The notes under the pieces are model-generated. The model saw nothing but the letters and a program-made list of their open reading frames with translations. It was not told the origin of the DNA and searched no databases. Shown here in pieces: positions 35,107-60,584 of a stretch of 64,000 bases of DNA; the stretch's first letter is position 1; the number at the start of each line of letters is the position of its first letter. A program made the position numbers and the translations under genes. Origin of the DNA: Allacma fusca (Eukaryota > Arthropoda > Collembola > Symphypleona > Sminthuridae); NCBI GenBank assembly GCA_947179485.1, contig OX359246.1:59871632-59935631 (forward strand). The letters are read 5' to 3'.

Positions 35107-35277
35107 CAAGGATGGGAATCGGTATCGGAATCGGAATTATATTCGAAAATTTGAGGATTTTAATTCATATTGGAATTCCAAATAATTCCCAGGAAGTATT
35201 TTAATTCAAAATCGCATTCAAAAAATTTTTTTGGAATCGGAATTGGTATTCAAATATGTTTTACTGAATTCCGATTA
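35107..35277. mobile_element. Truncated word-array element (GGAATCGG type), one end
   Basis: The block starts CAAGGATGGGAATCGG and continues with degenerate repeats of GGAATCGG, GGAATTC and AATTCC for about 170 bp. The start resembles the ends of the complete hAT-like elements in this window, which share an ATGGGA core. No matching opposite terminus or target duplication is present, so this looks like a solo or truncated end. Confidence 0.45.
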
Positions 35278-35831
35278 AAATAAAGTATTGCTTACTCTTA
35301 ATACAAGCGCTCACGATTTAGGCATACAACAAGTCTCTACGACAGGGCTTGATTCGTAAGCCGTTGGGCGTTTAATTTCTACAATCACACTACCACCTCT
35401 TCAAGTAATTGTCCCTGTGAAGCACAGGGCTTTTACTATTGTGCATATTTTACAACTAGAAGTTTTGAACTTAGCGCACAAAGATAAAACTTACAATAAA
35501 TTTTGTTACAACTAAATTTATGGTATTTCACAAACCACGAGACCAATTACCCAATACTATACCGAAGTTAGTGTGTTACAATTCTGAAATCTAATACGTT
35601 AAATAATTTAAATATTTGGGCGTACTATTTGACAGCAATGTGTATTTTCTAAACCATTTTAATCTTGTGCTCTGAAGTCTCTTTCACTATTGATTGTACT
35701 TATGTATATCGTTTATGAAACTACATCTAATCAATCATGCATTCAAAATACATGAATTGTTTTATACTTTCCAACATAGACAATTGTTTACCAATATGGG
35801 TGTTTCTATGAAAACAAGCTAAAATAAATCA
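35278..35831. other. Nothing recognised
   Basis: AT-rich DNA between the truncated word-array block and the hAT-like element. No coding or structural signal seen. Confidence 0.5.
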
Positions 35832-35839
35832 TCTCTTGG

Positions 35840-36986
35840 CAGTGGTCGTCATGGATACAAGAAGTTTGTTCCCGTTCCCGTTCCTGTTCCCACTCAATGG
35901 GTACTCTCCGTAAGTGTTCCCGTACCCGGGCCCGATCCCGTTATGATGGGAACAGTATTTTAGGTACTCGTTCGCATAAATTTAATAAAAGTACGTACCC
36001 GGACCCGTTCCTGTTCCCGTACCCAGAAATTAAAAATGTTGTGGACCCGTACCCGTTCCCACAGCTGGTGTCCCCGGTCCCGTTCCCGGGTCCAAGTCGT
36101 ATTGTACTTACAATTAGTGTGGTAAAAATTATTATCAGAATTTCTGTAGCCACCAAACCCTTCGTTTTGCAGATAAATACAGACAATATGCAGGGCGGCT
36201 AAACGCTCCCCCATTGCTAAACGTAACGGCGTAATAACAGACTGTTTAATTCTTCAGAGATTATGTACCGAGTAAACCGAATATCAACACTTCAAAATGT
36301 CATACTGGGAAAATGCTCTTCCAAAAATAAAATTACATGTTGATGAGGGTTTCAAAATGGTACTTAATATTTAAGATCAATTGCTGGCCCAAAGATAATT
36401 ATTCTGCATATAAAATATATCTGAAAAAACATGCCAGTACATACATGGATCAGTTTCCCTTTGTTAGTTTTATTTAAAAAAAACATTAACTCGAGCAATC
36501 CATTTTTCAGGGGTAAAACCTGCAGTAAAAGTATAAACTAATAATAATTATTTTAATATTTATTATATTAACTTGTAGAACTATTCTAGAAAATACCGCA
36601 ATTGTACTGAAACCTGAAACACGATTTCTAGCATTTGTATCTTTAAGGCAGGGATATGTGTGTAGAAATTGGAGGAAATTGTAGAAATCAATTTTGAATG
36701 CGTTTCTAGAAGATGGTAAAAGTACCCACTCGATCCCGGGAACAACAGGTATGGGAACGGGATCATGTGCAGACTGTACCCGTTCCCGATGGGAACGGGA
36801 ACAAAATGAAAATCTCCGTTCCCGTTCCCACTCGTGTTCCTGTTCCCGGTGGTCGGGTTCACTTGAGTGTGTTCCTGCTCCCGTACCTAAACTGGTTGGG
36901 AACAAAATATTTGTTCCCGTACCCGTTCCTGTACTCGTTCCCGTTCCCATGTACCCGGGTTTTACCCGTTCCCATGACGACCACTG
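35840..36986. mobile_element. Non-autonomous hAT-like element, CCCGTTCC word array
   Basis: A 1,147-bp element with perfect 15-bp terminal inverted repeats (CAGTGGTCGTCATGG at 35840-35854, its complement at 36972-36986). It is flanked by a perfect 8-bp target duplication TCTCTTGG (35832-35839 and 36987-36994). The 8-bp duplication and CAGTG terminus fit the hAT superfamily. Subterminal zones (about 35,866-36,095 and 36,715-36,970) consist of degenerate repeats of CCCGTTCC, CCCGTACC and the complement GGGAACGGG. The middle is plain AT-rich DNA with no transposase, so it must move in trans. Low-complexity open frames over the arrays are artefacts. Confidence 0.88.
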
Positions 36987-36994
36987 TCTCTTGG

Positions 36995-38549
36995 CATAAT
37001 TTTACTACCATATATAGTACCTGTAACATTCAGTTTGTGTACAAGGTGATGAAGCTTGATGAAATAAAGATACATGGTTTGAAGGTTCAAAAACCCGGGT
37101 ATTAAATTTGCTAGCTGGGAAATACGGAAGCATGTACTCCCTGCCAGTCACACAGAGAACTCAAGCAAGGAGTGTGGTGAATGTACTGATCACCTGGTTG
37201 ACCTGTGGGTCATGAGGTCACCCAAGGGTCAGCAGATTTGTAAGAAGTACCAAATACAATGTGGGACAGTAGATTGTTCGATTCACTTATATTATTTATA
37301 AGATACCCGTACAGGGCCGTACACACGGGAAAAGATAAAGTCCATTTTGTATTTAGTGCTCTATTTATGTATAAAATGACTCTTCATTGAATAAATCAAA
37401 TATAGATCTTATTACAAACAGAATCAAACATTTCCATCCGAAGGTTTCGTTTCAACGACATCATTTCTCGGTTCAAAACACAAAGATCTGGGTTTACAAG
37501 ACCATGTCCCCAACCAGGGGCGGGGCGATGTAACAATATGATCAAATGAGAATTTACATTACTATTAAACTGTTTTTGATCCGCCAGAGTTACCCTGCTT
37601 ATTTTATAAGCGCTTCCTTAATCTCTTTACTTACACTAATGAAGCCTGGCCAAGAACAATTTTACATCGTGAACAATATTCAGAAACTGTTTAGTCAGAT
37701 TAGTAAAATACTGTGCCAGCAAGCGCAGCAGTAGCAACAGAATCCAAGAGAGTTATAGATCATTATGTAACAGGTTTTTAAAATAAAAAAATTATGTCCC
37801 CCAACTTGAAGTTTACATACATATGTAATTACGTATGTCGTTTATTCTTACTCTTTGCATATTTTTGCATGGAGTGGATCAAAATACCTGAAATTTCCAA
37901 AGTTAGGGGTTTTCAGGCAATTTCAGGTGGGCAAGCAAAAATTATTTTCGTTTGTGCGTTTTTATTATTCATCCCACTTTGTAGCGACTGGAGTGTTTAC
38001 TTATGTAGGATAATAGAAATATATTTAGAAGGATGAGATTCAATTATGATTCTTAGATATCTCAACTCTGCATCTCTCTCTCAAATCAATCTGTATCTCA
38101 AATTTTAGAGCTACGGATTCAATAATTGAAATAATTGGGGTGTCGTTATAAGGAGCGTCGATTGTACGCTTAATATAATAATATGAAGATATTTCATTCC
38201 CTCATCTTATTTTTATCGGATTCTTCCTTCTTGCTTAATTGTGTCATTTATTTTCAACGGGCCGACAATAAAAGTGTATAAAAAACTAAATGCACAATTT
38301 ACTTACTTATAGTACAGTTTTCATGTCCTCTTTTTAATTTATTATACAATTTTTTAATTTAACATACCAAGTATACATCCAGTATTTACGATACAGTTTA
38401 CACTTACTATAATCGACTTGACCGATAAGATAATTTTTTCTATAGATGCAAAAATTATTGGACGTCCGGGTTAATTACGACAGTGTTAATGTGTCTCCTT
38501 TCAAAAGTGTCTACTGCATTTGAAGGGCGCTTATGCATAAAGTATACAC
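36995..38549. other. Mostly unassigned DNA; possible stray exon
   Basis: No firm gene. A frame from about 37,083 to 37,306 on the plus strand is open for about 70 codons and contains five cysteines (around ECGEC and QICKKY). A good donor (gtaagaag) follows the triplet ATT T within it, so a broken or alternative exon is possible. A second frame (37546-37734, ATG start, 62 codons, ends AQQ) is also non-repetitive. Neither has homology I recognise. Confidence 0.35.
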
Positions 38550-59819: not shown

Positions 59820-60211
59820 TATCCAAATAGCGTTTGCAGATTCATATAGTTTACGTAATCAATTGGGTACTTATCTGTTGACGGTAGCCTGGTCAGCTAC
59901 AGACAATGCTTTGCAATAATATTCTTGCGGTGCATACAGATTTTAGCTGCCAGGCCTCAGATGAATGCAGGGGTGATGGAAGGTAGCAGAGAAACGAAAA
60001 TAACTGGAATCACTTTACTTTGAACGTTTATTATGTATACACATTTGAGGATAACTGTTTAACTTGTGGTTCAACTTTCAAGTTTCCTTATCTCCCTAAC
60101 TTATCGTAGTTTATTTTATTTTTAGCTTCTATCACGTCCACCAAACGTTATTGTCCTTCGGAGCTAATTTTTGTACAACCTTCCTCTCTCAGCTCCCAAC
60201 CGCAAATTCCC

Positions 60212-60228
60212 CCAGCTACAGAATATTC
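60212..60228. repeat. LINE target-site duplication, right copy
   Basis: CCCCAGCTACAGAATAT, identical to 55626-55642, directly beyond the 5' end of the LINE. Confidence 0.93.
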
Positions 60229-60468
60229 TTCCTTAAAACAAGTAATCTTATAACTCCTGGGTTATATTCGAGTCACTAATTTTGCTAACTATATAGTTCT
60301 CAGATATATTGAATTTTATGTATTTGTCCAGTAGGTAAGTTCTTCAAACCCGCCAAAAAAGTTTTAAACCCTGATTTCAAAATGTTAGTATGTTAGTGCT
60401 TTTACCTTAAAAATATTTATATGAACATGCGTTAGAGACAACCTTAACAATTGCCCGAGTCATTTATT

Positions 60469-60577
60469 TTAAAATTATATTTTGTATTTGAAATACGGGG
60501 TGGGTAAATTTTACAAGATAAATAAATACAAAATACTACCGCGTTTGTAATCTTCAAAATACGAAATACAAAATACA
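60469..60577. repeat. AAAATAC word array, right part
   Basis: Repeats of TATTTGAAATAC, AAATACAAAATAC and AAATACGAAATAC, ending within about 10 bp of the histone H4 sequence. Counterpart of the array at 55262-55460. Confidence 0.7.
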
Positions 60578-60584
60578 GTAGAGA

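Follow-up and report, generated by a model that had tools for sequence, protein, structure and literature searches.

Short words in the arms of hAT transposons in a springtail genome and their probable change in concert with the transposase

Target-site duplications (TSDs) of 8 bp are made by Hermes, Herves and similar hAT transposons. These elements have short terminal inverted repeats (TIRs), many short sites in both ends and a transposase with an N-terminal BED zinc finger. The motif bound by the Herves transposase is CG/AATTCAT, which recurs with derivatives at both ends of the element (PMC3143072); the BED fingers of Hermes bind AAG(T/C), of which its ends hold 17 and 14 sites (PMC10368747). 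According to the Hermes authors most hATs carry such subterminal repeats, and Ac, Tag1 and Tol2 are also mentioned with them (PMC10368747). Tgf2 and Kat1 are further hATs of this sort. A comparable arrangement is known from the VANDALs of Arabidopsis, which are MULE-type elements. There, a DNA-binding protein encoded by the element and the clustered short motif that goes with it differ from one related family to another, and in VANDAL21 tandem repeats are the route by which VANC targets change, with several copies changing at once (PMC5735166). Here we describe 64,000 nucleotides of the genome of the springtail Allacma fusca (contig OX359246.1, positions 59,871,632 to 59,935,631; hereafter the window), in which an initial annotation had recognized a series of transposon-like blocks, A to H in what follows, each with arms made of its own short word. 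The elements belong to known superfamilies with known subterminal repeats. Unlike the work on Hermes and Herves, our comparison covers many lineages within a single genome. Each of them has a word of its own, and the letters of the word follow the element on a common layout in one sister group. This coordinated letter change is what is new relative to the descriptions that we found, and the titles and abstract starts listed from the open-licence literature showed no trace of concerted evolution or coevolution of hAT ends or of motifs specific to their families. The arrangement also differs from VANDAL/VANC, where a separate anti-silencing protein and tandem-repeat turnover are involved; here it is hAT transposases, and letters change on a largely fixed layout.

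Letters beside a common core in five sister elements

A coordinated letter pattern is shown in one sister group of hAT elements, E65, E66, E67, E68 and E70 (those in loci L065, L066, L067, L068 and L070, and unrelated to block E). Their transposases are 49-61% identical, and the arms of the five align with few gaps. As sites we took the 28 positions with TTC or its complement in at least four of the five elements, a choice which by construction gives the core an identity of 0.89-0.93. The letter before the core is A in E65 (24/27), E68 (22/23), E70 (18/26) and E66 (13/23), and T in E67 (23/26). Two positions ahead of the core, A is the letter of E70 at 21/26 sites, and G prevails in E66, E67 and E68 (17/23, 18/26 and 14/23). 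When letters were permuted among elements within each site, none of 5000 shuffles reached the within-element concordance before the core, which is 0.687 against a shuffled mean of 0.454 and 0.482 for the same site between elements; two before the core the within-element value is 0.508 against 0.403 shuffled, again with 0/5000. It is therefore mainly one letter, and partly a second, that follows the element, on an unchanged layout. Spacer composition did not predict the core-adjacent letters, with sites treated as independent. Ungapped co-linearity of arms, judged by setting offset 0 against 60 other offsets, is clear for L065-L067, L033-L050, L031-L033 and L036-L053 (0/60 offsets reach offset 0) and less clear for L042-L044, L037-L036 and L031-L050, where 2, 5 and 7 of the 60 do so.

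The transposases carry candidate readers of these letters. After exons had been joined by hand, an N-terminal BED finger (PF02892) scored above the cut-off of 20.6 bits in all four families tested: L066 with 24.9, L067 with 37.4, F with 39.3 and D with 21.1 bits, the last clearing the cut-off by 0.5; the unjoined L066 frame gives 15.8 bits, which is under it. The words set beside the fingers of L060 (D), L066, L067, L070 and L052 (F) are TGTTCCGGTCC, CGATTCAGTCC, CGTTTCAGTTTC, CAATTCAATTCA and CGGATAGGATA, respectively, and the helix residues read TSNLKNH in L066, TSSLKNH in L065 and L070, TGSLKNH in L067, VSTLKNH in L068, GAMVKH in D and GNMGYH in F. In the crystal structure of the Hermes finger with DNA, hydrogen bonds are made by S66, N67 and R70 (PMC10368747). 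With these residues matched to the springtail helices by eye, L067 stands alone among the five sisters in having G at the first matched position, as it does in having T before the core. A search of solved structures for L066 returned only five antibody chains, with E of 0.19 and above. The Herves site CG/AATTCAT is nearly the word of L065, L066 and L070.

Words and transposases across hAT lineages

Beyond the sister group, we surveyed hAT transposases by a PF05699 search in which 150 hits of 860 candidates were scored. By our own count, 22 of 30 PF05699 loci have an array of their own lineage's word, in 12 lineages including that of block F. The array could be placed in 16 of these 22, in L052 by its duplication and in 15 (five lineages) by the homology breakpoint between copies; the breakpoint-placed words are TTCTATTCTAC in L031/32/34/49, CCTTGCCTT in L037/38, CGCTCACCCTCA in L042/58, GAACTCGAACTC in L044/46/51 and AGTTCAATTCA in L054-57. 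Six arrays are known from single copies (L033, L035, L036, L048, L050 and L053). The eight loci that were not counted are L029, L030 and L045, which have no clear array, L047, whose array is unplaced, L043 and L039-41. We rejected the array of L039-41 as their own, as by eye it is another element inserted upstream, and L043 as an owner pairing: its transposase groups with L037 and the adjacent array with the ends of the L065 group, so that the array is most likely a neighbouring insertion. L049 was left out as a near-duplicate of L031. We added seven loci whose transposases are related to that of D. Five of them (L065, L066, L067, L068 and L070) have exact 8-bp duplications and their own words; L069 and L071 have no target duplication and were excluded from the site test. 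Across the D and L065 groups an 8-bp TSD is present in seven of nine transposase-bearing loci.

Two of the window's families have transposase-bearing relatives. A hAT transposase lies between D-type ends at L060 and L061, both arms of which are common with block D and which are flanked by duplications TACATCAC and GCTACGCG, and the PF05699 hits C12:4841275 and C12:41429849 lie inside D ends. For F, the hit C9:21629981 lies inside F ends, and F-type ends surround L052/L063 (TSD ATTGTACT) and L010, where no duplication was found and the frames are broken. The transposases of L010 and L052 are 55% identical and the same word is kept: in their arms the word columns are identical at 227/270 (84%) and the spacers at 251/483 (52%), the columns being counted from both rows and thus not independent. 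As a separate observation, two D-type elements of unequal length (L059 189-4460 and L062 179-3476) lie about 57 kb apart on contig C1 with the same 8-bp duplication, ATTGCTAC, and a duplicated locus is therefore more likely than two insertions.

Word similarity follows transposase lineage, as had been proposed. In a tree of 35 rows, near-identical copies with the same word cluster, five forks are open and several branches are long. Over 18 lineages, with L043 left out, transposase identity correlates with word similarity (r=0.51) and with TIR similarity (r=0.57), each with 0/5000 permutations reaching the value; in the 13 best-verified lineages the values are 0.49 for words (24/5000) and 0.69 for TIRs (0/5000), and with L043 kept in (19 lineages) the word correlation is 0.37 (2/5000). 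The mean word cosine over the 18 lineages is 0.50 at 45-70% transposase identity (14 pairs), 0.17 at 30-45% (38 pairs) and 0.18 below 30% (101 pairs), so word similarity is at background level by 30-45% identity. The diversification that the initial annotation had called rapid is relative: the F-type word is kept at 55% identity, and D and the L065 group, at 39-41%, have diverged, the four pairs given having word cosines of 0.06-0.15.

Proposed re-addressing of hAT ends and its alternatives

Judging from the arms and transposase genes, we think it probable that the words are BED-finger sites which are rewritten in concert with their transposase. A hAT end would then have two layers: a terminal repeat of 12-15 bp, often of type YAGNGNTGNGCA, which would be the cutting site, and an arm of 100-250 bp full of the short word in both orientations. 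Each word would be bound by the N-terminal BED finger of the lineage's transposase, and an oligomeric transposase could hold many words together with its many fingers and thereby select the right element; such a many-word grip has precedent in Hermes (PMC10368747) and, for the transposase, in Herves (PMC3143072). Non-autonomous copies keep the arms and would therefore ride on their owner's transposase. Were the preferred letter of the finger to change, substitutions coordinated across both arms would rewrite the sites to match, with the layout largely unchanged, and sister lineages would therefore carry different addresses. We infer that selection by the BED finger is the cause of the coordinated letters, and gene conversion could contribute to the rewriting. 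More tentatively, we speculate that hAT lineages repeatedly re-address themselves: once the BED finger has changed, matching substitutions would follow at about two dozen homologous sites across both arms, which would not have to be rebuilt, and each new lineage would thus be insulated from the transposases of its sisters.

Several observations weigh against this reading. The proposal that each word is the recognition unit of its own transposase lineage is supported for D and F, whose transposase copies lie between arms with the same word; blocks A, B, C, E and H could not be given an owner. The word of L054, AGTTCAATTCA, and the CAATTCA word of L070 have a cosine of 0.70 with transposases that are 18% identical, a pair of just the kind that the initial annotation had named as counting against a one-to-one match of word and transposase (a word common to unrelated transposases). 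Among the five sisters, E66 has no uniform letter before the core (A 13, G 7 and T 3 of 23). Two before the core E65 is mixed as well (G 14 and A 10 of 27), and knowing the site there is almost as good a guide to the letter (0.491) as knowing the element (0.508). After the core there is little concert (96/5000), and site beats element, 0.644 to 0.562. The helix residues are identical in L065 and L070, but the two differ in the second letter ahead of the core, which in L065 itself varies. Co-linearity is mixed overall: 9 of the 60 other offsets do better than offset 0 in L066-L070, where there is an indel, and 2, 4, 25 and 41 do so when D is compared with L066, L067, L070 and L065, respectively. 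Finally, the TIRs of L044, L054 and F fall outside the pattern YAGNGNTGNGCA.

One might instead regard the arms as satellite-like DNA, in which slippage and gene conversion spread a random word with no binding role and privacy reflects independent seeding. Some arrays do contain plain tandem copies (the 102-bp repeat in the left arm of C and the L035 array), and tandem-repeat turnover is the route proposed for VANDAL21 (PMC5735166). We nevertheless think this unlikely, given that the 28-site layout is common to five sisters while the letters go with the element, that F-type elements conserve their words better than their spacers, that both orientations of the word occur in B, C, D, F and the left arm of G, and that the word follows transposase identity. 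Somewhat more doubtful still is that the words are targets of some other protein, encoded by the element or by the host, such as a VANC-type anti-silencing factor: VANC proteins bind short motifs that vary among related VANDALs and are often in tandem (PMC5735166), and G has a second gene with weak BEN similarity, but the BED fingers sit in the transposase itself, the transposases of Herves (PMC3143072) and Hermes (PMC10368747) bind such repeats, and no second conserved gene was noticed in the elements of the D and L065 groups, where no systematic test was made. Words in both orientations, some of them palindromic (TTGTGCACAA in G), could also act through a single-strand hairpin or foldback structure rather than sequence-specific protein binding. 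This we consider very improbable, as H and E have their words mostly in one orientation and concert affects specific core-adjacent letters rather than pairing.

If the words are indeed sites of the BED finger and change with it, one genome would offer a natural set of finger-to-word pairs from which to derive a BED-finger recognition code. Transcription factors are poorly suited to studying a change of preference at many sites because their sites are scattered; here protein and sites share one 3-4 kb element, and many sister pairs at graded distance are available in one genome. The pace and route of preference change would become measurable, and the pairs could serve as training data for the code. 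Such addresses would also suggest how many hAT families can coexist in one genome without mobilising each other's copies.

The blocks of the window and their surroundings

We scored the commonest 6-mer of 14 arms in the window against 300 dinucleotide shuffles. Ten arms lie above all shuffles (both arms of B, D, F and H, and the left arms of C and G); enrichment is weak in the right arm of C (1/300 shuffles reach its top 6-mer), A (5/300) and E (4/300), and the right arm of G has none (72/300). As a control, a 6-mer is present at least six times in 3 of 220 tiles of 240 bp from the remainder of the window. The words are mostly private to their blocks. GGACCA has 15 copies in D and none across the other seven blocks, CGGATA 31 in F and one in H, GGGAAC 21 in B and one in D, TGCACA 14 in G and one in B, and AAATAC 16 in H and one apiece in A, B and D, but ATAGGA is common to C (16) and F (14) and AATCGG to A (4) and G (2). 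The block words are also dispersed through the other 61 kb (for example, 19 GGACCA and 96 AAATAC). Two words that had been quoted literally do not stand, GGGACGGCGGG being absent from the window and CCTATAGGAT present only once. Both orientations within an arm, the other feature that had been stressed, are found in B, C, D, F and the left arm of G and weakly in A (3:1), but hardly in H (8:1 and 1:6) and not in E (3:0).

The blocks are not one kind of TIR element, as had been supposed: B, D and F are hAT-like, C and G are of another kind, A and E are one-sided and H lacks matching ends. We had considered that all blocks might be hATs, which is ruled out by the 2-bp duplications of C and G. To count copies, terminal patterns were matched with 2 or 3 mismatches over the whole 392.7-Mb assembly, with the reversed pattern as control, and the six families searched in this way have 14 to 672 ends. 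Blocks B, D and F are non-autonomous hAT transposons. B (35840-36986) has the TIR CAGTGGTCGTCATGG, the word GGGAAC/CCCGTTCC, the TSD TCTCTTGG on both sides and 672 matching ends (at most 3 mismatches) against 2 in the control; in a comparison by eye, none of 100 listed ends (of the 672) faces a scored PF05699 hit (150 of 860) within 10 kb. Among the matches listed, twelve B-type ends lie in a single orientation over about 1 Mb (contig C1:63120765-64139556), which suggests segmental or tandem duplication there. D (44370-44977) has the TIR TAGGAATGGGACTGTTCC, words GGTCC/GTTCC/GGTCTG, the TSD GGTTGAAC on both sides and 420 matching ends against 24. F (46888-47868) has the TIR TAAGGTTCCTCA, the word CGGATA/GGATAGG and the TSD GGTCAATG, to which a single base is added at the right end; the left end of the element has 63 matches against 2. 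Both ends are present in 20 of 28 F loci examined, and in these 20 the 8-bp TSD is exact in 14, has one mismatch in 2, is shifted by one base in the window copy and is absent in 3. The hAT TIR consensus is YAGNG, which B (CAGTGGTCGTCA) and D (TAGGAATGGGAC) fit and F (TAAGGTTCCTCA) fits partially.

An ATGGGA core at the termini of some blocks had been taken as a sign of common descent. The hexamer occurs 51 times in the window, and at termini it falls on an end pattern that several hAT families, whose words differ, have in common. By eye, the TIR pattern YAGNGNTGNGCA is common to many families, and an ATGGGA core at some of the window's termini is therefore to be expected; it agrees better with ends of superfamily type than with a recent common ancestor, and we rejected a single recent origin of the blocks on this ground.

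Block A (35110-35300, plus strand) is one end of a family with the word GGAATCGG, and its second end was not found in the window. Its terminal pattern has 478 matches (at most 3 mismatches) against 1 reversed, and the matches listed include some facing pairs with zero mismatches 1.1-1.2 kb apart; A is probably a non-autonomous hAT transposon. A tandem array of TTTCCACTT/TTTCCACCTTT lies at 34821-35001, about 110 bp to its left. Block E (46786-46870, plus strand) is a one-sided, 85-bp patch of GGGACG/GCGGGA words in a single orientation.

C and G are not hATs because of their 2-bp duplications; both end in CCC, and they repeat this design in a different superfamily, with putative binding proteins. 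C (41116-42169; 1,054 bp) has the TIR CCCAGTCACTCCAAA, the word TATAGGA and 214 matching ends against 1, and the 8-bp target-site duplication of hATs was not found: its duplication is TT in the window copy and TA in two other copies. A LINE at 38707-42490, with a reverse transcriptase and a weak endonuclease match, has its endonuclease part broken by C.

G (48169-53298) is CACTA-like, of the TNP2 type, with the TIR CCCGATTGGAAAT and an apparent 2-bp TSD, TA. The left arm holds TGCACA words and TTGTGCACAA palindromes, and the left end has 14 matches against 1, with the bases ahead of CCCG varying among copies. A transposase remnant at 51217-52956 (plus strand) was recognized via homologs and has no Pfam match of its own in the window. 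PF02992 is precomputed in 5 of 17 homologs, two of them named Allacma fusca; it is above cut-off in homolog P0002, and P0001 has no Pfam match. The best homolog is from Allacma fusca, at 90% identity over 72% of the query, and 5 of the 17 homologs bear this species name. An interrupted second gene (48740-50223, minus strand, exons read by eye) has weak BEN-domain similarity in its last part (PF10523, E=0.0099, 16.5 bits, under the curated cut-off of 23.2), and with the TTGTGCACAA palindromes it is a possible second protein-word pair. En/Spm has a TNPA subterminal motif. G resembles CACTA/EnSpm elements in its TNP2-type transposase (PF02992 in relatives) and its cluster of subterminal motifs on the left side, and differs from them in its CCCG... 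ends instead of CACTA, its apparent 2-bp TSD and a second gene that is only weakly BEN-like. CACTA/CACTG termini with a 3-bp TSD were not found, the termini being CCCGATTGG... and the flanking repeat only TA. The open-licence literature that we searched had nothing on a BEN domain together with EnSpm.

The arms of block H (55262-60580) abound in AAAATAC, which lies mostly on one strand, and the block is interrupted by a nested LINE; neither matching inverted ends nor an 8-bp TSD was found. Of 561 candidate copies 40 were scored, and 38 of the 39 other copies start at 55262, one starting 2 bases later. The LINE (55626-60226, minus strand) contains a reverse transcriptase at 55727-58147 and upstream frames, and by eye a 17-bp target duplication, CCCCAGCTACAGAATAT, at 55626-55642 and 60210-60226. 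On the left, a frame at 54551-55447 (minus strand) with an Ulp1 (Peptidase_C48) match and, by eye, a PHD-like cysteine-rich tail is truncated by the left AAAATAC arm and is possibly part of another transposon. On the right, a histone H4 fragment running from about codon 40 (60582-60773) lies a few bases from the end of the right AAAATAC arm, and its 5' half was not found within the window. By eye, the histones at this edge resemble those of arthropods. Complete frames for H2A (61898-62275) and H2B (63137-63508) follow.

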